This document shows, one piece after another, positions 15,978 through 39,619 of a stretch of DNA of 39,619 nt. Positions within the stretch are counted from its first letter, which is position 1, and every line of letters begins with the position of its first letter. The notes below the pieces were generated by a model. It worked only from the letters and a program-made list of their open reading frames with translations. It did no database searches and was not told the DNA's origin. The stretch is from Hyphomonas sp. Its GTDB lineage: Bacteria; Pseudomonadota; Alphaproteobacteria; Caulobacterales; Hyphomonadaceae. The stretch is from positions 1 to 39,619 of the forward strand of contig VMTE01000021.1 of the NCBI GenBank assembly GCA_013791775.1, in the 5' to 3' direction. The translations under genes were made by a program, and so were the position numbers.

Positions 15978-16053
15978 CGGCAAGCGCCGCAAGCATCGCG
16001 GCCAGGCATTCGGCGAATTGCCGTTCGAATTCGGCGAATTGTTCGGCGCTCAT
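15967..16053 (-). CDS. Possible 28-residue gene in the int operon
   Basis: A short frame, MSAEQFAEFERQFAECLAAM and then LAALADDE, starts at an ATGA overlap with the 78-residue gene and ends 11 bases inside the next gene. The overlaps at both ends and an amphipathic helical sequence support translation. Its length and lack of relatives make it uncertain. Confidence 0.4.
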   Translation of the reverse strand: MSAEQFAEFERQFAECLAAMLAALADDE

Positions 16054-16286
16054 TGCATAAACCCCGGTTGCGTGTCGGGGAGTCCCGCAACGCCTTCCGC
16101 GCGGCGCGCCAGTTCGGTGAGCGCAAGCGACAGGTCGAGTTCACGCATCACGCAATAGGATTGCAGTTCGTCGACCGGGAGCATATGAAGCGGGGTCCCG
16201 TTCGCTAGGCGAAGGTTTGCCGCCGTCGCGAGTTTGGCCGCGTGAACTTTCTGTTCGTCGGTAAGGCCGTTGAATACGATTTGCAT
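16050..16286 (-). CDS. Hypothetical element protein (78 residues)
   Basis: A small, largely helical protein of unknown function, starting MQIVFNGLTDEQKVHAAKLA. A ribosome site (CAGGATGGAAC) precedes it in a leader that closely resembles the leader of the prohead protease gene. It lies downstream of the portal gene, where head-tail connector or neck proteins are often found, but its length and sequence do not identify one. Confidence 0.65.
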   Translation of the reverse strand: MQIVFNGLTDEQKVHAAKLATAANLRLANGTPLHMLPVDELQSYCVMRELDLSLALTELARRAEGVAGLPDTQPGFMQ

Positions 16287-16311
16287 TGTGTAGTTCCATC
16301 CTGTTGAAAAG

Positions 16312-16380
16312 GTGCGGGCGACCGGAAGTGTTCAAAAGGAACACCGCGCCACACTTCCGGTCTTAAAGTCTCGCCCGCTA
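16312..16380 (-). promoter_or_regulatory. Bipartite hairpin between portal and the 78-residue gene
   Basis: Two nested inverted repeats share one axis. Inner arms GACCGGAAGTGT (16320-16331) and ACACTTCCGGTC (16351-16362) are perfect. Outer arms GCGGGCGA (16314-16321) and TCGCCCGC (16371-16378) are also perfect. Nothing suggests a T-rich terminator. It would form a strong mRNA stem between two cistrons, and could tune expression or be a processing or packaging signal. Confidence 0.6.
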
Positions 16381-16412
16381 AGACTCCGTCGTCAAACGGC
16401 GCGGCGTGTCGG

Positions 16413-17618: not shown

Positions 17619-17619
17619 G

Positions 17620-18150
17620 TCAGAACCCTCCGAGGTCTAGGAAATCAATCCGGCGGGCAAGATCGCTGCGATTGGCGAAAGCCGCCGAACGGGCATTCAC
17701 ACTGGTTTGGGGGTAAGCAGGCCATGCCGAGACAATCGAAATCTCGCGAAGGTCAATCGCGTGCAGCGTTCGCAGCGAGCCTTGCCAGGTCTCTCGCGTC
17801 GGAATGAAGCCGAAGGATGCCCCGCCAAGCGAACCGGCGTCAGCGAGCGCTAGAACGTCGTCAGCAAGGCTTGTTTTCGGTAGGGCGATTTCGAAATGCA
17901 GGCCGCGCGTATCTTCGGCGAGGCGAAGCGACCCGTTGCGGGTGCGACCAAGCAATTTTTCGGTGTTATGATCTACGAGGCATAGCTTGTCGCCCGCCTT
18001 GAGCGTGTCGGCGAAAGCGCCGCGTGCAATCATTTCGTCAAAGTCGACGATGCGTGCCCGCTGTTCGAAGACGGCGGCGTAACCTTCCAGGGTCCGGCCC
18101 TTGGCGCGCACTTCCAGTTCGGCGGCGCGACGTTCGATTGTGTTCGTCAT
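17620..18150 (-). CDS. HK97-type prohead maturation protease
   Basis: A 176-residue serine protease that cleaves the capsid delta domain during head maturation. It shows the family pattern LEGYAAVFE, FADTLKAG, LVDHN with His61, LGRTRNGSLRLAED, GLHFEIALP and GGASFGF with Ser112. The start at 18150 follows AGGATCACACC; the longer frame to 18231 only adds leader sequence. It lies between capsid (upstream) and portal (downstream), in the reverse of the usual portal-protease-capsid order. Confidence 0.92.
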   Translation of the reverse strand: MTNTIERRAAELEVRAKGRTLEGYAAVFEQRARIVDFDEMIARGAFADTLKAGDKLCLVDHNTEKLLGRTRNGSLRLAEDTRGLHFEIALPKTSLADDVLALADAGSLGGASFGFIPTRETWQGSLRTLHAIDLREISIVSAWPAYPQTSVNARSAAFANRSDLARRIDFLDLGGF

Positions 18151-18167
18151 GGTGTGATCCTGTGAAA

Positions 18168-18256
18168 AGAGGTGGGGCGGCGGTTTGCCAACGGGAATGC
18201 CGAAAACCGCCTTCACCGCCGCCCCTGCCACGCGCCAGGGTGATAGCGCGTGGCGT
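18168..18256 (-). promoter_or_regulatory. Nested hairpins between capsid and protease genes
   Basis: GGGGCGGCGGT (18174-18184) pairs perfectly with ACCGCCGCCCC (18215-18225). An alternative inner stem is GGCGGTTT against AAACCGCC (18179-18186 with 18204-18211), so two folds compete. A second perfect hairpin CCACGCGC/GCGCGTGG lies at 18228-18253. The adjoining leader (CACCTcTTTTCAcAGGAT, read on the minus strand) is shared with the 78-residue gene, so the two cistrons appear to carry the same control module. Confidence 0.6.
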
Positions 18257-18262
18257 TCGGGA

Positions 18263-19519
18263 CTAGGCCGCGTTCATGTCCGCCGCATAGGCGAAGGATT
18301 CTTCATGACGAAGTGCAACGTCCGCCGTTAGAAGCGCGCGTACCTGGACGTTGCCCTTAGAATACGCCGTTGCTTCATAGGGATTTGCCAGGATATCAAC
18401 GCCGGACCAATATCCAACGACAAGCGAACTGAAGTCGCCGAACACAATGCCACGATCAGCCGGTGAACCGTTGCCCACAAGCGCGGTCGTGTCGTAGTAT
18501 TGATACCCGTACAGACTGTTCGGCTCGCTCATGATCATGCGACTGTCCGTGGACGCAGCGACCAGTGTTGACCTCAATTTCTTTGTGACGTCGGGATGTC
18601 CGGCCCATCCGAGCGAGCCCATAAGCGCGTTCGTGTTGGCAATGCTTGCGATCATGGCCAGACCTTCGGCCCATGTCGGCGTAGCAAAGGTTGTCGGCGT
18701 GACGGTCGCGCCGATGCCTGACGGCTGATTGGCACCCCCGCCAACGAGGGCCGCTGCATCCAATGCGGCCGCGAGAGCCCGCGCGCCGTCTCGCATTGCC
18801 ATTTGATCCACAGACGGATCGGCTTGCAAGATCATATTGCGGCTGAATTCCGTCAGTGCACCAACGTGTTTCGGCGTCAATGTGCGGGCGTTGATATCCC
18901 AATCTGCGGGAGACAGAGCCCCGTTTTCGGCAATCCAAGCCGCTGTGAAGCCGGTATCAACGGCGGGGATAGAGACGTTACCGTGAAGGTTCGACAAGAC
19001 AGTCGCGCCGAGCCGGTCGACCACAGAGGCCGCCCGCAGCATATCGATGGTCAGGTCGCCGCGATGATCGGTGCCAATCGCGCCCGCGCCGGTCGTACCT
19101 GACACAACAACACGTTGTTCATGCCGGGGGCGCTGGAATATTTCAGTCGGGATCATGATACCTTGCGCCTTGCGCCCGGTGCGTCGTTGAAGTTCCTGAC
19201 TGATTTCACGGACGCGGGCCGTGTCGCGGCCTTCAATGCCCGCACTGGCAGCGATGGCGTCCAGGAAGAGGCCAGGCGCGCGGCAAGCGCGGTCGAAATC
19301 CGGGGTGCCGTTGAGCGGCGTCGCAGCGGCTGCGAGTTCCATTTGATTCAGGCGCTCTTGACGGGCGATTTGATCGTTGATCGCACGGCATTCGGTTTCG
19401 AGAGTTTTGTATGCAGCGTCTTGTTCAGGTGTCATTGGCGCGCCGCTCGCGGCGTCCAGTATTTGACGGAGTTCGCGGACCTTGGCGGCGCGCTTCTCTT
19501 GGAGTTGGGGAATGGTCAT
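18263..19519 (-). CDS. Phage major capsid protein, HK97 fold
   Basis: A 418-residue major capsid protein. Residues 1-110 are helical and charged, the usual scaffolding (delta) domain removed by the protease. The remainder is the HK97 core: TTGAGAIGTDHRGDLTIDMLR, VDRLGATVLS, AAWIAENGALSPAD, ALTEFSRNMILQADPSV, LIGGAN-like GGGANQPSGI, and the C-terminal GIVFGDFSSLVVGYWSGVDI. It is the first gene of the head block, behind a TTGACA promoter candidate and an 18-base palindromic element. Confidence 0.93.
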   Translation of the reverse strand: MTIPQLQEKRAAKVRELRQILDAASGAPMTPEQDAAYKTLETECRAINDQIARQERLNQMELAAAATPLNGTPDFDRACRAPGLFLDAIAASAGIEGRDTARVREISQELQRRTGRKAQGIMIPTEIFQRPRHEQRVVVSGTTGAGAIGTDHRGDLTIDMLRAASVVDRLGATVLSNLHGNVSIPAVDTGFTAAWIAENGALSPADWDINARTLTPKHVGALTEFSRNMILQADPSVDQMAMRDGARALAAALDAAALVGGGANQPSGIGATVTPTTFATPTWAEGLAMIASIANTNALMGSLGWAGHPDVTKKLRSTLVAASTDSRMIMSEPNSLYGYQYYDTTALVGNGSPADRGIVFGDFSSLVVGYWSGVDILANPYEATAYSKGNVQVRALLTADVALRHEESFAYAADMNAA

Positions 19520-24624: not shown

Positions 24625-24731
24625 GGTGGCAGGGACTTTCCCACTTTCAGGCCCAGCTATGCGTCGTCCGTCGTCTCAGCCGCCCGCCGCCAAAGCCGAA
24701 GACCTCATCGGCGACCTCGCCCATACTCAAT

Positions 24732-24784
24732 TTTTGATCATTTTTCGCAGTTTTTCAATATTTTGAGCATTATTCGCACTTTAT
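24732..24784 (+). promoter_or_regulatory. Tandem 24-base direct repeats upstream of the Fic gene
   Basis: TTTTGATCATTTTTCGCAGT (24732 on) and TTTTGAGCATTATTCGCACT (24761 on) extend as a 24-base repeat with four differences, spaced 29 bases. They lie 60-110 bases before the Fic start in an AT-rich patch unlike its surroundings. They are likely binding sites for a regulator of fic. Confidence 0.55.
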
Positions 24785-24842: not shown

Positions 24843-26390
24843 GTGCCCGACGAAAACTATGGTTTTTCGCCCGATTTGAGGGTTTTTCGTGACCGCCATG
24901 TTCCCGAAGGTGTGCGGCTATGTGGCTATGCGGCCCTGATCCACGCCTTCGACCTCGATATCCCGCTCCCGCGCATACTGAGTGGAGCAAAGCCAAGCTT
25001 TGCGGAGATGACTGCAGATGGCTGGCAGCTCTATTCTCCGCGCCATCTGCCGGATCCAGGTTTCGCCGGACATCTGACCTTCGCGCTCCGCTATGAGCCC
25101 GTCGACCTGTTGATCCTGAAAACCCTCTTCCAGAAGGCCGGGACAGCCCCGGTCGAAAACATGGTTCGCGCCAGCCCGAACGGCCAGTATGCAAGGCGCG
25201 CCTGGTTCTTCTTCGAATGGCTGACCGGCACCACGCTCGACCTACCCGATGCTGGCGCCGTAGGTTACACAAATGCGCTTAACCCCGACATTCAGATTGC
25301 GCGCCGTGGGACCAATTCGCAGCGTCACCGGGTCCGGAACAACTTGCCGGGTTCAACAGACTATTGCCCGCTGGTCACCCTCTCTCCGCCAATCAAGGCA
25401 TTTCTCGAACGCGATCTTGCAGGCGAGGCGGCGGCAACTATCCGGCCAATTGGCAATGACCTTGTTGCCCGGGCGGCTGCCTTCCTGCTGCTCGCCGACT
25501 CCCGCTCGTCCTTTGCCATCGAGGGCGAAAACCCACCACAGGATCGGCTGCAAAGCTGGGGACAGGCCATCGGCCAGGCGGGACGCAATCGCCTAAGCCA
25601 CGAAGAACTCTGCCGCCTGCAAAGGATCGTCATACCCGATGCCCGCTTCATGCGAATGGGTTACCGGATCGAAGGCGGATTTGTCGGAGAACGTGATCGC
25701 CACAGCGGCGCGCCCCTGCCTGAACATATCAGCGCTCGGGCTGAAGACCTTCAGGTGCTTATGGCGGGGTTGCTCAATTTTGCAAATACAGCCGCGTCCG
25801 GCCTCAATCCGGTGGTTGCAGCAGCGCTGATTGCATTTGGCTTTGTCTATATCCATCCGTTCGAAGACGGTAACGGGCGCATCCATCGATACCTCATCCA
25901 CCATCAGCTTGCCGCCTCAGGATTCAATCCGCCCGGACTCGTCTTCCCTGTTTCGAGTGCGTTTCTGTCACGCATCATCGATTACCGGGACACACTCCGC
26001 TCCCATTCAGAACGCATCCTGCCATTCATTCAGTGGCGGGAAACAGAAACCCACAATGTCGAAGTCCTGAATGAGACGGCTGATTTCTACCGCTACTTCG
26101 ACGCCACACCGCACGTCCAGTTCCTGTTCGAATGCGTCGCCCAGACGATCGAAAGGGACCTGCCGGAAGAGCTCCTGTTCCTTCAGCGCTATGACCAGTT
26201 CAAGACACGCATTGAACAAAGGCTGGCTCTTCCTGATGCCCGCCTCGATCTATTATTTCGCTTTCTCAAACAGAACAGCGGCACCTTGTCCCTGCGCGCG
26301 CGAGAGAATGAATTTGCGGCTCTGACACCCGAAGAAGCTACCTGGATCGAGACGGTCTATGCAGAAGCCTTCCCTCCAGTCATCCCCTAA
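24843..26390 (+). CDS. fic: Fic-family AMP transferase (class II, with inhibitory motif)
   Basis: A 515-residue Fic protein. The N-terminal 200 residues form an unassigned domain. Next comes the inhibitory motif SFAIEG (Ser223, Glu227, Gly228), matching (S/T)xxxE(G/N), which in class II Fic enzymes blocks ATP binding until released. The Fic core contains HPFEDGNGRIHR (338-349) with catalytic His338. The C-terminal part (about 400-515) is helical. It transfers AMP to a hydroxyl group on a target protein; the target is unknown. The GTG start has GAAGG upstream. AT-rich flanks with direct repeats and nearby toxin and IS remnants suggest horizontal gain. Confidence 0.88.
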   Translation: MPDENYGFSPDLRVFRDRHVPEGVRLCGYAALIHAFDLDIPLPRILSGAKPSFAEMTADGWQLYSPRHLPDPGFAGHLTFALRYEPVDLLILKTLFQKAGTAPVENMVRASPNGQYARRAWFFFEWLTGTTLDLPDAGAVGYTNALNPDIQIARRGTNSQRHRVRNNLPGSTDYCPLVTLSPPIKAFLERDLAGEAAATIRPIGNDLVARAAAFLLLADSRSSFAIEGENPPQDRLQSWGQAIGQAGRNRLSHEELCRLQRIVIPDARFMRMGYRIEGGFVGERDRHSGAPLPEHISARAEDLQVLMAGLLNFANTAASGLNPVVAAALIAFGFVYIHPFEDGNGRIHRYLIHHQLAASGFNPPGLVFPVSSAFLSRIIDYRDTLRSHSERILPFIQWRETETHNVEVLNETADFYRYFDATPHVQFLFECVAQTIERDLPEELLFLQRYDQFKTRIEQRLALPDARLDLLFRFLKQNSGTLSLRARENEFAALTPEEATWIETVYAEAFPPVIP

Positions 26391-26929: not shown

Positions 26930-28294
26930 CTATCTGCTGCGGGGCAGCCTGACGACGACACTGAGCCCGCCCAGCGACGATTGGCCGAGTGTGATCGAGC
27001 CGCCATAGAGCGACACTAGTTCATCTACGATGGCGAGGCCGAGGCCGGCGCCCGGCTTTCGTTCATCCCAGCGAATGCCGATCGCGAGGACTTCCTTCCA
27101 CGCCTCGGGCGGCAATCCCGGGCCGTTGTCATCCACCGAAACTTCCACGAAGTCGCCGCCGGCGAACTGCGCGGCCACCACGACCCTCTGATTGGAATAC
27201 TTGCACGCATTGTCGATCAGGTTTCCGAGAATTTCGTACATGTCGCGCGTGTCGACGGCCACTGCGAGATCAACATCGCTGGCGCCTGTCGTATCAATCG
27301 AATGATCCGGGTACATACGTGAAATGGCTTCGGCGACCTGGTCGATCACGACGGGAACACTTGTGCTCAGGCCCGGCATCTTGATGCCGGCCACGGCCCT
27401 TGCCCGGGCGACGTGGTGATCGATGTGGCGCTGCATCACAAGGGATTGCTCGAGAATGGCCGCGCTGGATTCCGGCGTGTACCGCCCGGCGTTCAACTCG
27501 TGTGCCTCGTCGGTGATGATGGAAAGTGGCCCCTTCAATCCGTGAGCCAGGTTTCCCGCCTGTGTCCGGGCACGTTGCAACAAGGTGCCCATGGAGTTGA
27601 TCAGCTCGTTCAGCTCCGTAACGACAGGCTGAACTTCAGAGGGAAACTCGTGCTCGAGGAAGGGCTTGCGGCCAAGCTTCACCTCTTGGAGCGACCGCTG
27701 AAGACGCTTCAGGGGCGAAAGCGCAAACAGGACCAGAAATCCGGCCGAGACAATCATGCTGACGGCAAAAATGAACAGGGCCAGGCGGGCGCGCGCATCA
27801 AAGGCGGCCACGGCGGCCTTGAGATGGCGCATATCGGTTGCGACGACGAACTGGAAGATCGGGTCATCGACCGTACCGGTGCCCAACGCCTTCTCCGCAA
27901 TCAACATCGGACCTGTAGGGCCCAAGGCCTCATGGAGTTCCACGGGCCGATCAGGCGCGTGCCGGTGGGCCGGCCAGTCGATCACCGTTTCGGCGAGCGA
28001 TGCGCTGCGTAAGGGAGGACCATCACCGAGGCGCGCCTGCCAATAGTATCCCGACATGGCATAATCGTAGCGCGGATCGCTGAAACGGCTTACGAGCGAA
28101 AGCGATCCATCTTCGGCCACCTGTGTCAGACGGAACACCTCTTCGACGTGCACAAGCACTTCGTTTTCGAGTTCGATTCTGGTCTGCTCCCTGAAGATCA
28201 GGGACAGCACGACGAACGACACGACACAGCCGAGCGCGACCCAAATGGCGGCCGCAAGGATCAGACGGCTACGAAGGGACCGCGCGAAGGTCAT
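26930..28294 (-). CDS. Sensor histidine kinase, PhoQ-like
   Basis: A 454-residue inner-membrane kinase. Two membrane helices (about 10-33 and 170-192) bracket a periplasmic sensor domain of about 135 residues, and a HAMP-like linker follows. The dimerisation box is NLAHGLKGPLSII with phospho-acceptor His251. The ATPase domain has NLIDNACKYS (Asn362), DDNGPGLP (388-395) and GAGLGLAIV (415-423). The layout matches PhoQ-type partners of OmpR-family regulators. It starts three bases after the regulator gene stop, so the two form one operon. The signal is unknown. Confidence 0.9.
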   Translation of the reverse strand: MTFARSLRSRLILAAAIWVALGCVVSFVVLSLIFREQTRIELENEVLVHVEEVFRLTQVAEDGSLSLVSRFSDPRYDYAMSGYYWQARLGDGPPLRSASLAETVIDWPAHRHAPDRPVELHEALGPTGPMLIAEKALGTGTVDDPIFQFVVATDMRHLKAAVAAFDARARLALFIFAVSMIVSAGFLVLFALSPLKRLQRSLQEVKLGRKPFLEHEFPSEVQPVVTELNELINSMGTLLQRARTQAGNLAHGLKGPLSIITDEAHELNAGRYTPESSAAILEQSLVMQRHIDHHVARARAVAGIKMPGLSTSVPVVIDQVAEAISRMYPDHSIDTTGASDVDLAVAVDTRDMYEILGNLIDNACKYSNQRVVVAAQFAGGDFVEVSVDDNGPGLPPEAWKEVLAIGIRWDERKPGAGLGLAIVDELVSLYGGSITLGQSSLGGLSVVVRLPRSR

Positions 28295-28297
28295 ACC

Positions 28298-28951
28298 CTA
28301 TCCGAACCGGTATCCGAGGCCGCGCACGGTCTTGATGCGCTCCTTGCCGATCTTGCGCCGGAGGCGGCTGATATAGACTTCGACCGTATTGGACTCCCGC
28401 ATGGCGGCCGTCGCATACAGCGCCTCGACAAGCTCGCTCTGAGATACGATGCGCCCGGCCCGCTGCATGAGATATCGCAGCAACCGATACTCAAGGGACG
28501 TGGCTTCGACGGCGACGCCGTCAACGCGCAGTTCTGAATTCACGATGTCGAGCTCAATATTCCCGTGCACCAGAACGGGCGTGGCGTGGCGAGTTGAGCG
28601 CCGGACAAGCGCTTCCACGCGCGCTACCAATTCGGGCGAATGAAACGGCTTGGTCAGGTAGTCGTCGGCGCCGAGCCGCAGGCCTTCGACCTTTTCAGTC
28701 CAGGTTCCGCGCGCGCTGAGGATGATGATGGGGGTGAGGTTGCCGCTGCCCCGCAACTGTTTCAGGACTTCAATGCCCGACAGGCCGGGCAGCCCGAGAT
28801 CCAGAATGATCGCCTCGAAGCGGGCACTGGCGGCAACTGCCACCGCATCCAGGCCGCTTTGCGCATGCTCGATGGCAAACCCGGCCTGGCTCAGACTCCT
28901 GGAAATCCGGCGGACCAGTTCGATATCGTCCTCGACGATCAGAATGCTCAT
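28298..28951 (-). CDS. OmpR/PhoP-family response regulator
   Basis: A 217-residue regulator. The receiver domain (1-115) shows acidic pocket residues EDD at 7-9, phospho-acceptor Asp51 in ILDLGLPG, and the conserved Lys in LTKPFHSPEL. The winged-helix DNA-binding domain (about 125-217) contains LEYRLLRYLMQRAGRIVSQS and VEVYISRLRRKIG. The start at 28951 follows AAGGA; the frame to 29020 has no such site. It pairs with the downstream kinase. Dyads of CTGAA/TTCAG lie 75-110 bases upstream and may be its own binding sites. Confidence 0.92.
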   Translation of the reverse strand: MSILIVEDDIELVRRISRSLSQAGFAIEHAQSGLDAVAVAASARFEAIILDLGLPGLSGIEVLKQLRGSGNLTPIIILSARGTWTEKVEGLRLGADDYLTKPFHSPELVARVEALVRRSTRHATPVLVHGNIELDIVNSELRVDGVAVEATSLEYRLLRYLMQRAGRIVSQSELVEALYATAAMRESNTVEVYISRLRRKIGKERIKTVRGLGYRFG

Positions 28952-29026
28952 TGCATGTCCTTCCCGGCACCCGTTCCGGTTCAATTCTATTGCCAATGGC
29001 GCGGAACCTTCTGCGCTCAATCGAAT

Positions 29027-29371: not shown

Positions 29372-30679
29372 TCAGGGCTCGCCGTACTTGGTGACCACTT
29401 CCACGCCCATCGATTTCAGCAATCCGGTGGGCAGCACACCGCCCGCGCAGATGATCACGGCATCATTGGCAACGTCGAATTGCCGGCCGCAGCTTGCCTT
29501 GAGGACGGCCGCCCCATCGGAAATACGCAGCACTTCCGACCCGAGATGGGTGGCGATGCGGCCGGCTTGCGTCAGCGACGCGACACGGTCCCGGTTGCGG
29601 CGCCGCGCCCGTTGGAATGCGTCCCCGCGATAGGAGAGATCGACGACGGTTGAATTCTCTTCTGCAATCGACGCGGCCGCTTCAAGGGCGCTGTCTCCCC
29701 CGCCGACGACAAGCACCCGCCGGCCGCGAAACTGCGACGGGTCATCGAGGCGGTAGATGACCTTGGACATATCTTCGCCGGGCACACCCAGCTTCCTCGG
29801 GGATCCGCGCCGGCCGATCGCGAGGAGCACCGAACGCGCCTTGAGGCGTCCCGCCGTGGTGACGACTTCCAGACCGCCTTCAAACGGCACGACCCCCTCC
29901 ATACGGACATTGTGATGGATCGAAATGCTGGCGCGCGCGATTGCGTCGTGCCAGAAATCCAGGAGCTTCTCCTTCGAAATCTCCGTAAAATTCATCGGGC
30001 CGATGATGGGCAGAACGGCCGGTTTGGTCATCACGACCTTGCCGCGCGGAAAATGCGCGATCATGCCGCCGATGCTCTCCTGTTCGATGGTGGTGAAGCG
30101 CAGGCCGAGCGATTTGGCGGTCAGGCTTGCGGACAGTCCGGCGGGACCGGCGCCGACAATTACCAGGTCGAGCATCTCGCCGCTCGCCTTTCCGCGCAAA
30201 CTTTCGATCGCCTCGACCGCCTGCTGGCCCTGGCTGATTGCGTTGCGGATCAAGCCCATCCCGCCCAGTTCACCGGCAATGAAGAGGCCCGGCAGATTAG
30301 TCTGGAAGGTCGGGGTCACCATGGGCAACTCAATTCCCCGGGTCTTGGTACCGAAGACCAACGTAATCGCCTGCGTGGGACAGGCCGCCGCGCACGCGCC
30401 GTGCCCGATGCAGGCAGACGGATCAATCAGGTGCGCCTTGCCGTTGATGATGCCGATGACGTTCTTCTCAGGGCACGCCTTGGCGCACGCACCGGCGCCG
30501 CAGCACAGGGCTGGGTCAATGTGAGGGTGCAGCGACGGCGGCTCGACCAATCCCGCCTCCACGGATTCGGCAAGGATGGCGGACGCTGCGCGAGACCGGC
30601 GGTGGCGGGCGACCAGGTACAGACCTGATCCCACCATCAACGGCGCCGCGTACACCAAGACGAGGGACATTGAGTACAT
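29372..30679 (-). CDS. Membrane-anchored FAD / iron-sulfur oxidoreductase
   Basis: A 435-residue protein with, in order, an N-terminal membrane helix (about 4-24), a double ferredoxin-like domain (59-105) and a thioredoxin-reductase-type FAD/NAD(P) domain (170-435: VIVGAGPAGLSA for FAD, VLVVGGGDSALEAAASIAEE for NAD(P)). In both cluster motifs the second Cys is replaced: CCGAGACAKACP (Ala62) and CIGHGACAAACP (His93). Each cluster therefore has three Cys, perhaps with His as fourth ligand in one case. It probably moves electrons between NAD(P)H and a membrane carrier. It lies 26 bases after ccmI, at the end of the ccm operon, tying it to the cytochrome system. Confidence 0.85.
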   Translation of the reverse strand: MYSMSLVLVYAAPLMVGSGLYLVARHRRSRAASAILAESVEAGLVEPPSLHPHIDPALCCGAGACAKACPEKNVIGIINGKAHLIDPSACIGHGACAAACPTQAITLVFGTKTRGIELPMVTPTFQTNLPGLFIAGELGGMGLIRNAISQGQQAVEAIESLRGKASGEMLDLVIVGAGPAGLSASLTAKSLGLRFTTIEQESIGGMIAHFPRGKVVMTKPAVLPIIGPMNFTEISKEKLLDFWHDAIARASISIHHNVRMEGVVPFEGGLEVVTTAGRLKARSVLLAIGRRGSPRKLGVPGEDMSKVIYRLDDPSQFRGRRVLVVGGGDSALEAAASIAEENSTVVDLSYRGDAFQRARRRNRDRVASLTQAGRIATHLGSEVLRISDGAAVLKASCGRQFDVANDAVIICAGGVLPTGLLKSMGVEVVTKYGEP

Positions 30680-30705: not shown

Positions 30706-31899
30706 TTAGTCCGCAGGCGTATCCATTGCGCCGGTTGCAGCGTCATCGAGCTGCATCAAGGCAACTGCGTCGGCGGCAAAGACCGAACGTGCGCGCTTGA
30801 GCGCGTCCGCAGCCAGGTCTTCCTGGTTCAGAACCCTGCGCGCCCGGATGAGACGCATCCATCCCTCGAGGTTTTCAGGATCTGCGCGCAGTTTCTGGTC
30901 CAGACGGGTGACCATACCCTCGATCATGTCGGCGCGTTCCTGCGCCGACATTTCCTCAGCTTCCACAATCGCCTGAGGGCTCGGGCCGCCCACGGCCTGC
31001 AGGACGGCGTCCGGAATGCGGCCCGCCACATCGATTCCCGACTGCTGGGAAAGCTCGAGTATCCGTGTACGCACTTCATCCTGCCATTCGGCGCCAGGCT
31101 CCGCGGTCTCGATCAGCGCGATCCAGTCGTCCAGGGCTCCCTTCGCATCTCCGTCCTGCTCTTTGCGCAGGCCGAGCAGGAAGCGCGCGCGCGGATCACC
31201 GGGATCAAGACTCACGGCCTTTTGCAGATTCGCGACAGCGGCGTCATTGACGAACCCGCCTGCGACACGCGCCTGCGATTCTCCGAGAGCGGACAATGTC
31301 TGCGCATCGTCCGGCGCGAGATCGACCGCTTTCTGATAGGCTTGGCGCGCCCCTTCGACGTCGCCGGTACGGAACCGGGACCATCCCAGCATGCGCCACC
31401 CCTCGACATCTTCAGGACTGACCTCAAGTCTGGCCTCCAGGCTGGCAATCATGTCATCGACAGACCCGACTCCCCCATCCGTCGCGGCCGGGCCGGCGGC
31501 CTGATCACTTGGCATATTCGCTGTTACCTGGCGGGACCGGTTGGCAGACGGCACCTGCGGCGCGCCCACGTTCATGTAGATGAGCGCAGAACCGACGGCG
31601 ATCGCGGCGGCGGCAGCCACCAGTGTGACTTGATCAGAGCGGCGCATGTGCTCGCTTTCCTCGAATTCTTTGGTTTCCAGAGTTGCGGCGAGCCGGCGCT
31701 TGATCTCGAGTCGCGCCTGCCCTGCATCGTCAGCCGGAAGCAGACCGAGGGATTCTTCCCGGTCTATTTCCTTGATTTGCGCGATGTACACAGACGATTC
31801 CGAGCCCGACCTCTGGCGCAGGCGGCGGACAAACGGCAGGCACACGGCCGCGAATGTCGCGAGCATCAGTACCGAGAAGGTAATCCACAGTCCGCTCAT
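30706..31899 (-). CDS. ccmI: Cytochrome c maturation protein CcmI
   Basis: A 397-residue protein of the CcmI/CycH type, which presents apocytochrome to the heme ligation complex. It has two N-terminal membrane helices (about 3-23 and 92-111) with a cytoplasmic loop (YIAQIKEIDREESLGLLPAD), then a periplasmic TPR domain (about 150-260, WRMLGWSRFRTGDVEGARQA and AYQKAVDLAPDDA). It overlaps ccmH by four bases (ATGA). In this operon it presumably serves the multiheme cytochromes encoded on the other strand. Confidence 0.9.
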   Translation of the reverse strand: MSGLWITFSVLMLATFAAVCLPFVRRLRQRSGSESSVYIAQIKEIDREESLGLLPADDAGQARLEIKRRLAATLETKEFEESEHMRRSDQVTLVAAAAAIAVGSALIYMNVGAPQVPSANRSRQVTANMPSDQAAGPAATDGGVGSVDDMIASLEARLEVSPEDVEGWRMLGWSRFRTGDVEGARQAYQKAVDLAPDDAQTLSALGESQARVAGGFVNDAAVANLQKAVSLDPGDPRARFLLGLRKEQDGDAKGALDDWIALIETAEPGAEWQDEVRTRILELSQQSGIDVAGRIPDAVLQAVGGPSPQAIVEAEEMSAQERADMIEGMVTRLDQKLRADPENLEGWMRLIRARRVLNQEDLAADALKRARSVFAADAVALMQLDDAATGAMDTPAD

Positions 31900-32369
31900 T
31901 CTGAAGCGTCGTCCAGAAGGTGTACCCGAAGGCGTTGAACTTCATCTTGTGTGAGCGGCGCGGCGGGTTCCGGATGGGTCGCCTGAGGCCGCAGGTAGAT
32001 CCACCAGCACGCGCCCGCGCAGAGGATAAACAGACCGGGCCCGAACCACAGAAACAATGTGTCGAGCTGGAGCGGCGGCCGCAGAAGGACGAAATTTCCA
32101 TAACGGTTGGTCATGAACGCGCGCACCTGGTCGGGCGACTCGCCGGCCGCGAGACGCTCACGAACGAGCTGGCGCATATCTGCGGCTAGCGGCGCCGCAG
32201 AATCTTCGATGGACTGGTTCTGGCACACGACGCAGCGCAGCGATTTGCCGACCTCGCGTGCCTCCGCTTCCAGTTCCACACTGTACGTGCCGGCGGGCTG
32301 TTCCTGCGCGCGGGCAAGGACCGCCTGCCCCGCCAGCGCCAACAGGAAGATGATTACCGCAAGTCTCAT
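31896..32369 (-). CDS. ccmH: Cytochrome c maturation protein CcmH
   Basis: A 157-residue thiol oxidoreductase that keeps apocytochrome CxxCH cysteines reduced. It has a signal peptide (about 1-21), the family motif LRCVVCQNQSI with Cys46 and Cys49, VRAFMTNRYGNFVLLRPP, and a C-terminal membrane helix (LFLWFGPGLFILCAGACWWI). Its length is normal for the CycL form. It overlaps both neighbours by four bases. Confidence 0.93.
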   Translation of the reverse strand: MRLAVIIFLLALAGQAVLARAQEQPAGTYSVELEAEAREVGKSLRCVVCQNQSIEDSAAPLAADMRQLVRERLAAGESPDQVRAFMTNRYGNFVLLRPPLQLDTLFLWFGPGLFILCAGACWWIYLRPQATHPEPAAPLTQDEVQRLRVHLLDDASE

Positions 32370-32944
32370 GTCGCTTCCTGCTCCAGCAATCGGATCATCG
32401 GCAGCAGCGTGTCGTCCCAGATCTCGGGCGTTATCGGACCGATCTGCTTATAGCGAATGCGCCCATTGGCATCGACGAGGAAGGTTTCCGGCGCGCCCGT
32501 GACGCCGAGGTCGATTGCAAGCCGGCTGTCGGCATCCAGACCCGCGCTTGAATAGGGATTGCCGTATCTGGCCAACCAGGCCGATCCGTCCCTCGGCGTA
32601 TCGCGCCAGTCGACGCCGTGCACTTCGACAATGCCCGCCCTGCTGATGTCCATCAGTATGGGATGTTCGGCGACGCAGCTGACGCACCAGGATCCGAACA
32701 CATTCACCAGCGTGACGCGGCCGCGCAATTTGTCCGGGGACAGATTGGGAATCTCGTCCGATATCGGCTGCAGTTCAAATGCCGGCATCGGCCGGTCCAC
32801 CATCATGGTTGGCAATGCATGCGGATCGAGCGTCAAACCCTTGGCGAAGAACACGAGGATGATTGTGAGCAGGCCGACCGGTATCAAGGCCGTCCACCGC
32901 GGCAATGCTTGCCTGGCTGCGAGGGGTTGAGGCGCCTCGCTCAC
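32366..32944 (-). CDS. ccmG: Cytochrome c maturation thioredoxin CcmG/DsbE
   Basis: A 192-residue membrane-anchored thioredoxin that reduces disulfides during heme attachment. It has one membrane helix (about 18-36), then a thioredoxin fold with WCVSC (Trp86, Cys87, Cys90) and GVTGAPETFLVDANG (the cis-Pro segment typical of CcmG). The start is a GTG at 32944 that overlaps the ccmF stop (GTGA). The longer frame to 33070 lies wholly within ccmF. Confidence 0.92.
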   Translation of the reverse strand: MSEAPQPLAARQALPRWTALIPVGLLTIILVFFAKGLTLDPHALPTMMVDRPMPAFELQPISDEIPNLSPDKLRGRVTLVNVFGSWCVSCVAEHPILMDISRAGIVEVHGVDWRDTPRDGSAWLARYGNPYSSAGLDADSRLAIDLGVTGAPETFLVDANGRIRYKQIGPITPEIWDDTLLPMIRLLEQEAT

Positions 32945-34923
32945 GCCGTGCCTCCCGCTGCAGCCGGCGCCGGCACGCGAACCTTGTGCAGACCCGCCAC
33001 CCGGAACCGGCGATCCGTCAGCGACACCATCCCGCCTCCGGCGATGACGAATCCGCCGAGCCAGATCCACATCGCGAACGGGTGATAGTTCACGCGAACG
33101 GTGTATCCGCCCGGGCGGCCGGCATCGCTGTAGGCAACGTACAGGTTGAAGAACAGGCCGGGACGGATTCCGGCCTCGGTCGTGTAACTGTCGCGCTCCG
33201 GATAGTATCGGCGCTCGGTTGTGATCGAGCCGTCGGGCTTTCCGGCATGGATGACGTCAAAGGTCAGCCGCTCCGCTTCGTAGTTCGGTCCGTTGGTGAT
33301 GTCGGTGCCGGCCAGTCTGAACTCGTACTGGCCGAGCGCCACACTTTCGTTGACGCGCAGGAAGGCGACATTCTCGGACTCCCAGGCGGACATTCCGGTG
33401 ATGCCGATCATGGCAATCACGAAGCCCAGGTGCGCCCCAAGGAATCCCCAGGTCGCCCTGGGGAACGCACGGGCCATGGCGAGCGATTGGGCAAGCGGCA
33501 CACTGCCGATGCGGGTCCGCTTCATGAACCAGATCGCCAGCCCCATCAGAAGAAACGCGGCGAAACCAAATCCCAGCCCGGCTGGAATGCTATGGCCAAG
33601 GGCAGCAACGAGTATTCCGATGAGAGCCGCAACGGCTGCCGGATACCTGAGCGGCGAGGCAGCGACCTTTGCGCTGTCAGAACGCCACCGTACGAACGGA
33701 CCGATTGCCATCAATCCAGCGACCGCCAGCATGATGGGGCCGAACGCGATATCGAAATAAGGTGGGCCGACTGAAATCTTGTCGTGCGTGAGCGCATCGA
33801 TCAGCAACGGGTAAAACGTGCCGAGAAACACAACGGCCGTCGCGCAGAGCAGAAGCAGATTGTTGGCGAGGATGGAGCCTTCCCGGCTGACGCCCGCGAA
33901 GGGCGGACCATTCTGGACGACGCGGGCGCGCAAGGCGTAGAGCGCCAGCGCGCCGCCCGACGCCGCGACAATCATGAAGAGGATGAATATCCCGCGCGAT
34001 GGATCAACCGCGAAAGCGTGCACGCTGGTCAACACGCCCGACCGCACGAGGAAGGTGCCGATCAGGCTGAGCGTAAAGGTCAGGATCGACAGCAGCAACG
34101 TCCAGTTCACCAACGCGTGCCGGCGCTCCACGACGAGCGCCGAGTGCAGCAAGGCGGTGCCGATCAGCCATGGCATGAAAGAGGCATTCTCCACGGGGTC
34201 CCAGAACCACCAGCCGCCCCAACCCAGCTCGTAGTAAGCCCACAGGCTTCCCGTAGTGATGCCGATCGTGAGGAAACACCAAGACGCCAGCACCCATGGC
34301 CGGACCCAACGGGCCCAGGCCGCATCGACGCGCCCCTCGATGAGCGCCGCGACGGAGAACGAGTAGGCGATCGAGAAGCCGACATAGCCGAGGTAAAGCA
34401 TCGGCGGATGCAACGCGAGCCCGGGATCCTGCAGAAGCGGATTGAAGCCGTTGCCTTCAAGCGGGGCATCCAAAAGGCGCACGAACGGGTTCGAAGTGAA
34501 AATGATGAAGGCGATGAAGGCAACCCCGATCATCCCCTGAACCGCCAGTGTTCGTGCTTTGAAGGTTGCCGGCAGGTTGTTCCCGAAGACGGCGACCGCA
34601 GCGCCGAACAGGGCGAGTATCAGTACCCAGAGCAGCATCGATCCTTCGTGCTGCCCCCATGCGGAGGACACTTTATAGAAGAGCGGCTTCAGCGTGTACG
34701 AGTTGGCGGCGACTACCTGCAGCGAGAAATCCGAACGCACAAAGGCGAGGATCAGGCAGGCAAAGGCCAGCGCCAGGAGAACAAACTGAGCGACAGCCGC
34801 GCTGCTGGCGACTGACATGAGGCGAACGTTCCGGACGTAGGCGCCCCACATCGGAATCGTTGATTGAACCACGGACGTTATCAACGCCAGGATCAAACAG
34901 AAGAGCCCGATCTCGCCGGTCAT
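32941..34923 (-). CDS. ccmF: Cytochrome c heme lyase CcmF
   Basis: A 660-residue membrane protein of the heme ligation complex. It has about 14-15 hydrophobic helices, the tryptophan-rich WWFWDPVENASFMPW motif (238-252) for heme handling, and His residues in LHPPMLYLG (His172) and TALLHSALV (His260) that fit the family heme ligands. It leads the operon ccmF-G-H-I followed by the FAD/Fe-S protein. ccmA-E are not in this window, so either another locus supplies them or this is an extra, dedicated ligation set. Confidence 0.94.
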   Translation of the reverse strand: MTGEIGLFCLILALITSVVQSTIPMWGAYVRNVRLMSVASSAAVAQFVLLALAFACLILAFVRSDFSLQVVAANSYTLKPLFYKVSSAWGQHEGSMLLWVLILALFGAAVAVFGNNLPATFKARTLAVQGMIGVAFIAFIIFTSNPFVRLLDAPLEGNGFNPLLQDPGLALHPPMLYLGYVGFSIAYSFSVAALIEGRVDAAWARWVRPWVLASWCFLTIGITTGSLWAYYELGWGGWWFWDPVENASFMPWLIGTALLHSALVVERRHALVNWTLLLSILTFTLSLIGTFLVRSGVLTSVHAFAVDPSRGIFILFMIVAASGGALALYALRARVVQNGPPFAGVSREGSILANNLLLLCATAVVFLGTFYPLLIDALTHDKISVGPPYFDIAFGPIMLAVAGLMAIGPFVRWRSDSAKVAASPLRYPAAVAALIGILVAALGHSIPAGLGFGFAAFLLMGLAIWFMKRTRIGSVPLAQSLAMARAFPRATWGFLGAHLGFVIAMIGITGMSAWESENVAFLRVNESVALGQYEFRLAGTDITNGPNYEAERLTFDVIHAGKPDGSITTERRYYPERDSYTTEAGIRPGLFFNLYVAYSDAGRPGGYTVRVNYHPFAMWIWLGGFVIAGGGMVSLTDRRFRVAGLHKVRVPAPAAAGGTA

Positions 34924-35106: not shown

Positions 35107-35991
35107 ATGTTTTCAGGTACCATTCAGGCTCAGTCCAGAGAGACGCCCGCGCCCGCTCCGACGCCGACGCGCCGGCCCTTCGAATGGGGGTCCCTGATCA
35201 TCGGGACCTTCTTGATTGCGGCCCTGGCGCTGGGCTGGGTCTGGCGCGAGGCGTTGCCCTACACTGCGGAAATCGGCGTGGGGTACTGGCTTGGGATTAC
35301 CGGGCTTTCCTGTGTTGGCGTCCTGCTTTTGTATCCCCTGCGGAAGCGCGCTGCGTTCCTTGGTGTCTTCGGCTCGGTGCCGGCCTGGTTTCGCCTGCAC
35401 ATGTTCATGGGAGCGTTCGCGCCCGTCCTGATCCTGTACCATTCGAAGTTCGCTGTCGGATCCATCAACGCGATGGTCGCGCTGGTCAGCATGTTGATCG
35501 TCGCTGGTAGCGGCGTCATTGGCCGCTTCCTCTATATCCGGATCTATCGCGGCGTTGCCGGCAAGAAAGAAGAGGCCCGCCGGCTGTTGCAGGAGGCGTC
35601 GGCGTTCCGCGAGTTGCTCAATGCAAACTTTGCTGAAGCCGCCGACATCGCGGAAGACCTTGAAACCGCGCTGAAACATTCGAAGCGGGGGCTGATTGTG
35701 GCGAGTTGGCGGGCGATCCGCGATTCCAGCCTCATTTCGTCGGCGCAATCGCGGATGATTTCGGCCGTTCGCACGGGCGCGAAGCAGCAGCGGATAAAGA
35801 ACTCGCAAAGACGGGAACTGCGCAAGCGCTCCATCGAGCTGATCAAACGGTATTGCGAATCGCTCAGGGCAGCCGCGCAACTGGAAGTGTTCGAGCGCCT
35901 GTTCGCACTCTGGCACGTCGTTCACCTGCCCCTGTTCTTCCTGATGCTGTTTGCCGCCGTGATTCATGTCTTTGCTGTTCACCTTTACTGA
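35107..35991 (+). CDS. Di-heme transmembrane cytochrome b (ferric-reductase-like core)
   Basis: A 294-residue inner-membrane protein. There are membrane helices at about 28-46, 56-76, 94-113, 122-145 and 265-292, with a charged helical loop (150-260) between the last two. Paired His residues His98-x13-His112 and His273-x13-His287 have the spacing known from ferric reductase and NADPH oxidase cores, where four His hold two stacked b hemes across the membrane. It therefore probably carries electrons over the inner membrane. Its end overlaps the 24-heme cytochrome gene by 26 bases, so donor and acceptor are co-expressed. It is divergent from ccmF. Confidence 0.75.
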   Translation: MFSGTIQAQSRETPAPAPTPTRRPFEWGSLIIGTFLIAALALGWVWREALPYTAEIGVGYWLGITGLSCVGVLLLYPLRKRAAFLGVFGSVPAWFRLHMFMGAFAPVLILYHSKFAVGSINAMVALVSMLIVAGSGVIGRFLYIRIYRGVAGKKEEARRLLQEASAFRELLNANFAEAADIAEDLETALKHSKRGLIVASWRAIRDSSLISSAQSRMISAVRTGAKQQRIKNSQRRELRKRSIELIKRYCESLRAAAQLEVFERLFALWHVVHLPLFFLMLFAAVIHVFAVHLY

Positions 35992-37750
35992 CTGGCGAAG
36001 ATGGCTGGCTGCGCTGGTGCTGGCCTGGCTGGTGGCCGGCCTGCAATCGGCGACGCCGCAAAGCGCCATCGAGCGCCTCGTCGCGCCCGGAAAATTGTCG
36101 AACGCGCATATCGAACAGGAGAAGGACTGTGCGTCCTGTCACGAGTCGTTCAACAAGAAGGCCCAGTCAGGACTGTGCGCCGATTGCCACAAGGAGATCC
36201 GCGCCGATATCAGCGGGCGAACCGGGTTCCATGGCAGGTTTCCGGACGTCGCCGGAGCGGAATGCAAGTCCTGTCACACCGAGCACATTGGCCGGGGCGC
36301 CGACATCCTCGGACTTGTCCCTGAAAAATTTGATCACGATTTCACTGACTATCCCCTGGCGGGCGGGCACAAGAAGGTGGATTGCGCCGGGTGTCACAAG
36401 GCCGGCGTCTCCTTCGCGAAGGCGCCGCGCGATTGCGCAAGCTGCCACAAGACGGACGATCCGCATCGCGGAAAGCTGGGCACCACCTGTGCAGACTGCC
36501 ACGATGTTTCCAGCTGGAAAACCATCCGGTTCGATCACGGGAAAACGGATTTCCCGCTCCTTGGCAAGCACGACAGCGAGCCCTGTATGTCGTGTCACAA
36601 GGAGCAGGTTTGGGCCGGCACGCCGTCAGACTGTATCGACTGCCACCGCGCGGATGACGTGCACAAGGGAAGTTTTGGAACCGATTGCGCCAGTTGCCAT
36701 TCGGCAGACTCGTGGCCCAAGACACGCTTCAATCACGACACCACCGGCTTCAAACTTACGGGCAAGCACAATGCCATTGAATGCGCCGCCTGTCATGGCC
36801 CGGGAAAGCCTGACCCGGCGCCGAAGACCTGTATCGGATGTCACCGAGCGGACGATGTTCACAAGGGCGTAAACGGAACCGCATGCGCCGATTGCCACAC
36901 GGCGAAGAACTGGAAGACCGTTTCATTCGATCACACGAAAACCGGCTTCGCCCTGCTGGGCGCGCACGGGAAAACGCCCTGCGCGAGCTGCCATACCAAG
37001 CCCGCAAACGAGTGGAAGCCGCCGCGGACCTGCATCGGATGTCACACCGCAGACGACACACACAAAGGTCTTCTTGGGGCCGACTGCGAGACGTGCCACG
37101 CCGAAACATCGTGGACAAAAATACACTTCGATCACGCCGCGGATGCGGGCTTCACGCTGGGCGGCGCGCATGCGGCAATTGCCTGTGCCACCTGTCACAA
37201 GCAGCCAACGCCCGTCGCGTCGCCGCCGGTTTCGTGCGCCGGTTGCCACAAGCAGGACGACCCGCACAAGGGACAGCTGGGCGATGGCTGCGGCCAATGC
37301 CACGGCGACCTCAGCTGGACGGCGTCCGTTCGCTTCGACCATGAGTTCACCGATTTCCCGCTGCTCGGCGCGCATGAAGGCGCAGAGTGCGCCGACTGCC
37401 ACAAGAGCAAGGCGTTTCTCGACGTGTCCGCTTCCTGTGCGGACTGCCATGCCGAAGATGACGTGCACGAAGGGCGAATGGGCACAGAATGTGCGCAGTG
37501 CCACAATCCGTCCGACTGGAAACGCTGGACGTTCGATCACGACCAGCAAACCGCGTTCTCGCTGACCGGCAAGCACGCAAAATTGACGTGCGCCGCCTGT
37601 CATACCTCCAAGTCGGCAAAGTCGATGAAGATCTCCGCGCGGTGCATCAGCTGCCACGCATCCGACGACAAGCACCGCGGCGCCTTTGGCACGAGCTGTG
37701 AACGATGCCACAATACCGAGGCGTTCTGGGCGGTCGAAATTTCCAACTGA
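35966..37750 (+). CDS. 24-heme cytochrome c (cytochrome c3/c7-like repeats)
   Basis: A 594-residue exported multiheme protein. A signal peptide or membrane anchor (residues 1-32) precedes 24 CxxCH motifs. From about residue 110 a module of about 60 residues recurs: CxxCH, a SW..FDH segment, a LxGKH or LxGAH segment, CxxCH, then CxxCH with DDxHKG. Extra His in FDH, GKH/GAH and DDxH positions are natural sixth ligands, so hemes are probably bis-His and low potential. It acts in the periplasm or at the outer surface. It overlaps the cytochrome b gene and is the likely electron acceptor. It needs heavy heme ligation, which the adjacent ccmFGHI could supply. Confidence 0.92.
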   Translation: MSLLFTFTDWRRWLAALVLAWLVAGLQSATPQSAIERLVAPGKLSNAHIEQEKDCASCHESFNKKAQSGLCADCHKEIRADISGRTGFHGRFPDVAGAECKSCHTEHIGRGADILGLVPEKFDHDFTDYPLAGGHKKVDCAGCHKAGVSFAKAPRDCASCHKTDDPHRGKLGTTCADCHDVSSWKTIRFDHGKTDFPLLGKHDSEPCMSCHKEQVWAGTPSDCIDCHRADDVHKGSFGTDCASCHSADSWPKTRFNHDTTGFKLTGKHNAIECAACHGPGKPDPAPKTCIGCHRADDVHKGVNGTACADCHTAKNWKTVSFDHTKTGFALLGAHGKTPCASCHTKPANEWKPPRTCIGCHTADDTHKGLLGADCETCHAETSWTKIHFDHAADAGFTLGGAHAAIACATCHKQPTPVASPPVSCAGCHKQDDPHKGQLGDGCGQCHGDLSWTASVRFDHEFTDFPLLGAHEGAECADCHKSKAFLDVSASCADCHAEDDVHEGRMGTECAQCHNPSDWKRWTFDHDQQTAFSLTGKHAKLTCAACHTSKSAKSMKISARCISCHASDDKHRGAFGTSCERCHNTEAFWAVEISN

Positions 37751-38010: not shown

Positions 38011-39619
38011 GTGAGCCGGTTCCGGTCCATCCTGCGAATGATCCGCATACTGGCGGTTATCGCGCTGTGTCCGGCAGTCGTGCTGCCGGCATCCAACGCC
38101 GCACCGCTTGATCCGAAATCATCGTTCGATCACCTGTCCACAGGCTTTGCCCTTGAAGGGCGCCATCGGACGATTGCCTGCGAGGCCTGCCATTCCCGCG
38201 GCGAGTTCACCGCACTGCCGAATGATTGCAGCGCCTGTCACAACGGCGTGCTCAGCCCCGGCAAGCCGATGGACCACGTCCAGACGGCCGGAGAGTGCGA
38301 ACAGTGCCATTCGACAAGTTCCTGGACGAACGTCCGGTTCGACCACTCCGGCGTCAGCGGCACCTGCGCGGCGTGCCACAATGGCACCACCGCGTCCGGT
38401 AAGCCGCCAACGCATATTGCAACCACGGCTGCCTGCGAATCCTGTCACTCCGTCGCAAGCTGGACTGCGGTTCGCTTCGATCACTCGACGGTCTCCGGAG
38501 CGTGCGCGTCCTGTCACAATGGCGCGACGGCCACCGGCAAGCCCCCGACGCATATTCCGACGTCAAGCGGCTGCGATTCCTGCCACATCACGGCATCCTG
38601 GACCAATGTACGGTTTGATCACAGCTCGGTTTCGGGCACCTGTGCGTCCTGTCACAATGGGAAATCGGCAACTGGAAAGCATGTCCAGCACATTCCGACT
38701 TCGGCCGCGTGCGATACCTGTCATGTGACGACCTCCTGGTCGAACGTGCGCTTCGACCACGCGGCTGTGACCGGGTCGTGCGCCTCCTGTCACAACGGAA
38801 CTTCTGCCACCGGCAAGCCGGCAGGCCACATTCCCACATCCGCCGCGTGCGACACCTGCCACGTGACGACCTCGTGGTCGAACGTGCGCTTCGATCACGC
38901 GGCCGTCACCGGATCATGCGCTTCCTGTCACAACGGAACTTCCGCCACCGGCAAGCCGGCAGGCCACATCTCGACATCTTCAGGGTGCGACAGTTGCCAC
39001 GTCACAACGTCTTGGACGAATGTTCGATTTGACCACGCGGCTGTGACCGGATCGTGCAGCGCCTGCCACAATGGAACCTCCGCCACCGGCAAGCCACCAG
39101 GTCACATTTCGACATCCGCCGGGTGCGACAGCTGCCATGTCACGACCTCATGGTCGAACGTGCGCTTCGATCATGCGTCGGTGACCGGCTCGTGCGCCTC
39201 CTGCCACAATGGAACTTCCGCCACTGGAAAATCCGCAGGCCACATCTCGACTTCCGCCGGATGCGACAGCTGCCACGTCACGACCTCGTGGACAAACGTG
39301 CGCTTCGACCACGCGGCGGTGACCGGCTCGTGCGCCTCCTGCCACAACGGGACTTCCGCCACTGGCAAGCCGCCCGGTCATATCTCGACATCCGCCGGGT
39401 GCGATAGCTGCCACGTCACGACCTCGTGGACCAATGTGCGCTTCGACCACGCGGCGGTGACCGGCTCGTGCAGCTCCTGCCACAACGGGACGTCGGCTAC
39501 CGGCAAGCCGCCCGGTCATATCTCGACATCCTCCGGGTGTGACAGCTGCCATGTCACGACCTCGTGGACCAATGTGCGCTTCGACCACGCGGCGGTGACC
39601 GGCTCGTGCAGCTCCTGCC
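38011..39619 (+). CDS. Tandem-repeat multiheme cytochrome c (partial, runs off the window)
   Basis: An open frame from GTG 38011 to the window end (536 codons, no stop), in the same frame as 21 complete CxxCH motifs plus one cut by the edge. The N-terminal signal peptide (about residues 10-30, RILAVIALCPAVVLPASNA) is followed by an irregular start. From 38296 onward the gene is built of 46-residue units. Each holds CxxCH (often CDSCH), VTTSWTNVRFDH, a second CxxCH (CASCHN) and GTSATGKPPGHIST. Each unit thus has two hemes and two spare His (FDH and GH) as ligands. It follows the 24-heme gene and is probably its surface-exposed partner. An in-frame ATG at 38038 is an alternative start. Confidence 0.9.
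   Translation, partial: MSRFRSILRMIRILAVIALCPAVVLPASNAAPLDPKSSFDHLSTGFALEGRHRTIACEACHSRGEFTALPNDCSACHNGVLSPGKPMDHVQTAGECEQCHSTSSWTNVRFDHSGVSGTCAACHNGTTASGKPPTHIATTAACESCHSVASWTAVRFDHSTVSGACASCHNGATATGKPPTHIPTSSGCDSCHITASWTNVRFDHSSVSGTCASCHNGKSATGKHVQHIPTSAACDTCHVTTSWSNVRFDHAAVTGSCASCHNGTSATGKPAGHIPTSAACDTCHVTTSWSNVRFDHAAVTGSCASCHNGTSATGKPAGHISTSSGCDSCHVTTSWTNVRFDHAAVTGSCSACHNGTSATGKPPGHISTSAGCDSCHVTTSWSNVRFDHASVTGSCASCHNGTSATGKSAGHISTSAGCDSCHVTTSWTNVRFDHAAVTGSCASCHNGTSATGKPPGHISTSAGCDSCHVTTSWTNVRFDHAAVTGSCSSCHNGTSATGKPPGHISTSSGCDSCHVTTSWTNVRFDHAAVTGSCSSC
38296..39619 (+). repeat. 138-base tandem repeat array coding two-heme units
   Basis: Units begin at 38296 and then at 38434, 38572, 38710, 38848, 38986, 39124, 39262, 39400 and 39538, each exactly 138 bases apart with no insertion or deletion. 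The first three units differ noticeably; from about 38710 on they are nearly identical and the similarity rises toward the window end. This is a coding repeat (46 codons), not CRISPR. It points to recent unit duplication or gene conversion. Confidence 0.95.

Follow-up and report, generated by a model that had tools for sequence, protein, structure and literature searches.

PCC3 is a putative porin-cytochrome complex described with an inner-membrane protein (IMP), an inner cytochrome of about 21-24 hemes, a repeat cytochrome and a porin (He et al., 2017; PMC5566968); here and below, statements about the PCC3 papers apply to portions of their text. The same study already noted the repeats of PCC3 together with the wire idea, and gave Amphritea atlantica (63 + 21 hemes) as an example (PMC5566968). 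Models of PCC3 cytochromes are long and mostly linear (PMC10734462), the function of PCC3 has been termed unverified (PMC12442390), and these portions of the PCC3 literature, supplements aside, report no electron-transfer measurement. Hyphomonas is unnamed in the main text of PMC5566968, and a full-text literature search combining Hyphomonas, multiheme and extracellular electron transfer returned no paper.

The window, i.e., the whole stretch of 39,619 nucleotides analyzed in this work, is the entire contig C34 of a Hyphomonas sp. genome of 3.93 Mb in 51 contigs. Its features, which continue on contig C39 of the same genome, are the following:

26930..29020, minus strand: histidine kinase and response regulator (PF02518, PF00072, PF00486)
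29372..30679, minus strand: FAD/NAD(P)-type oxidoreductase with an N-terminal iron-sulfur domain (Pyr_redox_3, E 3.4e-35; Fer4_10)
30706..31899, minus strand: CcmI-like TPR protein (PF23914, TPR_CcmH_CycH, E 2.9e-22)
31896..32369, minus strand: CcmH (PF03918, E 3.5e-44)
32366..33070, minus strand: CcmG-like thioredoxin-fold protein (Redoxin, PF08534), a name taken from its position among the ccm genes
32941..34923, minus strand: CcmF, cytochrome c maturation (PF16327, E 1.1e-93)
35107..35991, plus strand: inner-membrane protein (PCC3 IMP), putatively di-heme-b by the motifs given below
35966..37750, plus strand: 24-heme cytochrome, putative periplasmic PCC3 cytochrome (Cytochrome_C7, E 1.3e-39)
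38011..39619, plus strand: multiheme cytochrome with repeats, the putative outer cytochrome of PCC3; it starts with GTG, carries a Sec-type leader and is truncated where the contig ends
38296..39619, plus strand: tandem array of 46-residue diheme units, 9 complete and 1 cut (unit table)
C39, L006 16111-15134, minus strand: remaining part of the outer cytochrome, 12 CxxCH, then a stop
C39, adjoining the array: SPOR-TPR outer-membrane barrel protein P0003

To the left of the array lie the 24-heme cytochrome, the IMP and then, divergently, ccmF, ccmG, ccmH, ccmI and the oxidoreductase, the porin being placed to the right on C39, and this order is conserved in the relatives G018, G031 and G045. 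The features of PCC3 are found here as an IMP of about 300 residues with SGxxG and two W-x3-H-x13-H motifs, a periplasmic-type cytochrome (24 CxxCH, the PCC3 median being 21 hemes), a repeat-rich outer cytochrome with a low residue-to-heme ratio (at least 33 hemes, 23 residues each) and a neighboring beta-barrel porin. Relatives common to the covered portions of PMC5566968 and to this work are Amphritea atlantica and an Erythrobacter sp.; the locus L061 comes from Amphritea atlantica DSM 18887, carries the 63 + 21 heme pair and holds homologues of the IMP, oxidoreductase and porin of the window genome (porin 31% over 720 residues, IMP 33% over 283). The IMP has 294 residues, with W-x3-H-x13-H at residues 94 and 269 and SGVIG, and its motifs also occur in 71 of 75 IMP matches. 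IMPs of PCC3 are described with five transmembrane helices; hydropathy separates four segments in the present one at a cut-off of 1.6, while at 1.3 the stretch from residue 91 merges into the third, and the looser cut-off gives a fifth segment. The 24 CxxCH of the inner cytochrome fall in invariant columns with G018, G031 and G045, as counted on the alignment. Taken together, we consider it quite probable that the cluster encodes a porin-cytochrome conduit of the PCC3 type, in which the array is the outer cytochrome and varies in length; this confidence excludes the direction of flow.

The kinase/regulator pair, a possible regulator of the cluster, lies left of the oxidoreductase here, and its homologues (68 and 83%) lie right of the porin in L019, at 15340-17368 (Hyphomonas sp. 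RI_45, NZ_WGLO01000005.1). Farther left, the window holds prophage genes at 14364-19519 (phage integrase, portal and capsid family matches) and a Fic/DOC family protein at 24843-26390 (PF02661), directly preceded by a tandem repeat at 24727-24782 that is AT-rich and has a period of 29.

In the open reading frame, the gene at 38011..39619 contains 21 CxxCH, and hydropathy places its hydrophobic leader at residues 7-25. The preliminary description of this DNA had reported ten unit starts at an exact 138-base period running off the window, and this was confirmed: the starts go from 38296 to 39538, nine units are complete, the tenth is cut by the window end, and the contig ends inside the array. 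TRF finds period 138 from 38689 on. A finer period of 69 bases is seen in 19 of the 20 CxxCH-to-CxxCH steps of the window gene (the first step is 48), and two half-types alternate along it, resulting in an A/B heme pattern with a 46-residue period. The uniform heme spacing claimed earlier, one heme every 23 residues, is indeed constant along the array. Two CxxCH and two extra histidines per unit, also claimed, are present in eight of the nine complete units, the one at 38572 having three extra histidines. Of the 21 motifs of the window, 20 have a histidine 12 residues past the CxxCH histidine, as do 10 of the 12 on C39; judging by this count, the number of histidines is sufficient for two per heme, any pairing of a given histidine with a given heme being putative. 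That the units are near-identical applies from 38710 onward (six complete units, 38710-39400, with 79-93% nucleotide identity) and fails for the first three, which reach 62-68% to any other window unit. Likewise, identity rises to the right edge within the window, but this edge is the middle of the array and identity drops again on C39, whose units match their best core unit at 96, then 79, 70 and 59%.

The preliminary description had named a stop codon or a loss of frame immediately beyond the window as refuting; neither occurs where sequence exists. Searching this genome at the DNA level showed the array reappearing in frame at the very end of C39, with 325 open codons before the stop and, in order, more near-identical units, diverged units, a C-terminal cap, the stop and the barrel gene. 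The ends of C34 and C39 have 19 bases in common, in the same repeat phase. Should there be no gap, the outer cytochrome would have 855 residues and 33 hemes by arithmetic, both minimum values; because the stretch between C34 and C39 is unsequenced, and such repeats break assemblies, 33 hemes is a lower bound. The second multiheme gene is also cut by a contig end in 15 of the 77 scan loci having at least two multiheme genes. Contigs terminating inside the array on both sides could suggest an assembly artefact; however, the core units differ from one another with a pN/pS of 0.10 and other genomes hold uncut arrays of the same design, which makes an artefact highly improbable and leaves only the copy number unsafe.

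The history of the array was approached with a tree of 35 units from three arrays of one genus (13 here, 9 from G018 and 13 from G031), in which several branch supports are low. Units from the array ends group with their positional counterparts in the other species (W01-H01, Wc3-H08-R12 and Wc4-H09-R13, supports 0.83-1.00), whereas central units group by species here (W04-W09, Wc1) and in G031 (R04-R10); those of G018 form no single group. This contrast between ends and center indicates that the array grew in its middle, independently in at least two species, a mode of expansion that may be new. Two units are identical in G031, and the best pair here reaches 96%. Since the core units here have a mean pS of 0.51 and a mean pN of 0.05, their near-identity at the protein level mostly reflects strong purifying selection. 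The recent expansion proposed in the preliminary description is thereby narrowed to a few central units and does not extend to the rest, given the core pS.

The outer cytochrome has 23 hemes in G018, 31 in G031 and 27 in G045, and uncut arrays of relatives range from 7 (L072) to 73 hemes (L054). The heme count of the first cytochrome gene is either 21 or 24 in 69 of the 72 uncut cases, whereas the second has 7 to 67 across 62 uncut cases. One of the three exceptions for the first gene, the 8-heme row of L097, is another gene that entered through the automated assignment; the pieces with 8 hemes in L066 resemble a single broken gene. The opposition of a fixed inner to a variable outer cytochrome may be new, though the trend is already visible in print, in the PCC3 medians of 21 and 34 hemes (PMC5566968) and in the 21-27 against 10-35 hemes of Gallionellaceae PCC3 (PMC10734462). 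Averaged over 68 arrays, among them cut and duplicate ones, the identity of heme blocks is 0.44-0.56 when they lie an even number of blocks apart and about 0.11 when the number is odd. Equivalent sites variable in number would also suit an electron store, a capacitor whose length sets capacity and not reach, as raised in PMC10734462; storage alone needs neither constant spacing nor a porin partner, so we regard it as unlikely to be the main role of the hemes, although storage and conduction can coexist.

Other regularities of the arrays were observed as well. The best self-match lag is four hemes in 35 of the 68 arrays, pointing to a four-heme super-period, and two, six and eight hemes in 14, 8 and 11, respectively. 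An odd heme count as a general law was rejected: second genes are odd in 50 of 62 by position, or in 52 of 56 without the window's cut gene and the duplicates (L013 = L019, L017 = L033, and the L032/L054 gene), nine of the 12 even-count second genes belong to Betaproteobacteria by title, and even counts are in print for Gallionellaceae too (PMC10734462). On the one contig of Proteobacteria bacterium WH4.bin33 that holds both L032 and L054, several repeat cytochrome genes follow one another; one of them, with 73 CxxCH in 1832 residues, is the largest array among the relatives found.

In its model, with a mean pLDDT of 84.1, the porin comprises a beta domain followed by a SPOR region, then TPR helices and finally a barrel of 22 strands (DSSP count), and SPOR and TPR_9 match 34 and 38 of 49 aligned porins, respectively. 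In fold searches with this model, the majority of the matches listed were diverse outer-membrane barrels, TonB-dependent receptors having the highest Z; MtrB is not among the 50 matches listed, which excludes nothing. The porin profile gave two chance-level matches to solved structures. At E < 1e-40, porin homologues occur in 15 of the 398 genomes covered from the order (20 at 1e-3); within the genus they occur in three of 37, counting the window genome, and we regard the cluster as a patchy accessory system. A mobile element was considered and set aside, as no porin match was found among 72,556 plasmid records.

Two gene associations accompany the porin in a set of 61 relatives. A near full-length homologue of the oxidoreductase is present in all four porin-bearing genomes and in none of the 57 others (Fisher 1.9e-6, uncorrected for kinship), three of which have a partial, distant match of 28-31%. 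Two ccmF copies occur in the same four genomes against two of the 57 others (Fisher 2.9e-5, uncorrected for kinship), where 54 have one copy and one has none; the second ccmF of the window genome is on C32. The two exceptions are G029 and G053, and in the latter the extra ccmF stands beside a related oxidoreductase-IMP cluster. Among 82 loci (79 scan loci plus L013, L015 and L017, two of which repeat scan loci), the oxidoreductase is matched in 63 and CcmF in 20. Of the 19 scan loci lacking the oxidoreductase, 14 offer less than 3 kb of sequence upstream of their first cytochrome gene, but five, all Betaproteobacteria by title, lack it despite at least 8 kb, and therefore it is not obligatory. 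The covered portions of the PCC3 literature, including PMC5566968, do not count the oxidoreductase and the ccm set among PCC3 components (supplements aside). The linked oxidoreductase may thus be new to PCC3, as may the second cytochrome c maturation set of these relatives, and both suggest a point of electron entry.

The oxidoreductase has an N-terminal hydrophobic segment at residues 6-24. Across 60 aligned homologues, the six cysteines of its two iron-sulfur motifs are at least 95% conserved; in the second motif, a conserved histidine takes the place of a cysteine normally found there in ferredoxin motifs, an apparently unusual cluster-binding pattern. Distant relatives of the oxidoreductase and the IMP also pair outside PCC3, in L100, L101 and L102 (28-31% over 224-263 residues and 24-25%, respectively). 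There, they adjoin a protein with 10 CxxCH and, unlike here, no repeat cytochrome is present in the stretches read. The oxidoreductase relative has 814-836 residues in these loci, the N-terminal part of the 10-CxxCH protein is FHA-like by eye, and ccmF is adjacent in L100 and L101.

The conduit proposal builds on gene content and order, repeat geometry, conservation and a confident barrel model. As to protein locations, partners, electron flow and its direction, we infer the following scheme. The di-heme-b IMP (35107-35991) would exchange electrons with the quinone pool and/or the NAD(P)H-FAD-iron-sulfur protein (29372-30679), the 24-heme cytochrome of fixed length would ferry them over the periplasm, the 22-strand SPOR-TPR barrel on C39 would move them through the outer membrane, and the repeat cytochrome, with at least 33 hemes, would take them beyond it, its length changing through the gain or loss of complete diheme units mid-array. 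A continuous heme path, the wire idea, is a plausible hypothesis; an AlphaFold2 model of nine units from 59 aligned sequences failed (pLDDT 53.7, pTM 0.25). MtrA has 10 hemes. Its length is given as about 100 angstrom (PMC5566968). As a rough estimate at this ratio, 24 hemes would extend for about 24 nm and 33 hemes for about 33 nm. A length of about 24 nm is close to the width of the periplasm. Against the conduit we count the failed model of nine units, the five loci without the oxidoreductase, the pairing of oxidoreductase and IMP relatives outside PCC3, an outer cytochrome sequence in which no lipobox was seen and the fact that, in the proteome of Sideroxydans ES-1, the outer cytochrome Slit_1448 went undetected while its IMP, inner cytochrome and porin were detected, according to the portions of the literature covered.

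In turn, the conductive filament put forward in the preliminary description was not borne out, as nothing points to a free polymeric filament and the array is one polypeptide within a PCC3-type cluster. The sequence is repetitive, heme-dense and rich in small side chains, as a self-assembling extracellular filament like OmcS or OmcZ might be, but the repeats lie inside one polypeptide, a barrel and an inner cytochrome are encoded in the same cluster, and OmcS and OmcZ are absent from the solved-structure matches listed, a sequence-only comparison; we consider such a filament very unlikely.

Fe(II) or Mn(II) oxidation, with electrons flowing inward from extracellular metal, deserves more weight. 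PCC3 is reported in some iron oxidizers and in a Mn(II)-oxidizing Erythrobacter (PMC5566968), and L029 comes from Erythrobacter sp. SD-21; both PCC3 copies of Sideroxydans CL21 show expression higher than the mean, with the copy 2 IMP going up when iron oxidation is possible (PMC12442390). Nevertheless, both PCC3 clusters of Sideroxydans ES-1 are down on Fe(II) in the published data covered, which speaks against metal oxidation and which we also count against the conduit, a RuBisCO match is absent from the window genome (the only CO2 fixation route searched), and the linked NAD(P)H-type oxidoreductase suits outward flow at least equally, so that metal oxidation seems rather doubtful here. Returning to the conduit, we tentatively hypothesize, as a possibility slightly ahead of metal oxidation, that iron oxidation is not the primary role of PCC3, which would instead be an adjustable outward conduit. 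In this reading, an NAD(P)H-FAD-iron-sulfur protein dedicated to the conduit, together with its own maturation set, would feed both a fixed inner wire, built in three-heme steps so as to span the periplasm, and an outer wire, the reach of which would be adjusted through mid-array diheme duplication.

Among described systems, MtrCAB and MtoAB likewise combine a porin with inner and outer cytochromes, but have ten hemes each against 24 and at least 33 here, and the decaheme family decahem_SO scored 74.1 and 19.7 bits, below its cut-off of 192.2. A profile search of solved structures with the repeat matched MtrC weakly (best 3.9e-11) and 6r2q_A at 8.5e-8, which we take to be MtrA although the table labels it cystathionine beta-synthase, and we count these matches in favor of the conduit; a single-sequence search gave one weak match (6f0k_A, 5.8e-5), and the profile of the 24-heme cytochrome had no match among solved structures. 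The nanowire_3heme family (TIGR04257) is similar in its tandem c7-like heme modules and differs from the diheme repeat with 23 residues per heme found here; the scores of 29.1 and 29.7 bits fall short of its cut-off of 40. With regard to PCC3 itself, up to 42 segments are predicted for its porin in the covered portions of PMC5566968, compared with the 22 strands modeled here. Judged by its genes, the cluster belongs to PCC3, a known class of very heme-rich proteins from many Proteobacteria, in which the present repeat is unusually clean. Together with the natural length series of 23 and 31 hemes in two species of the same genus and at least 33 here, this repeat makes the relation between wire length and reach directly testable.
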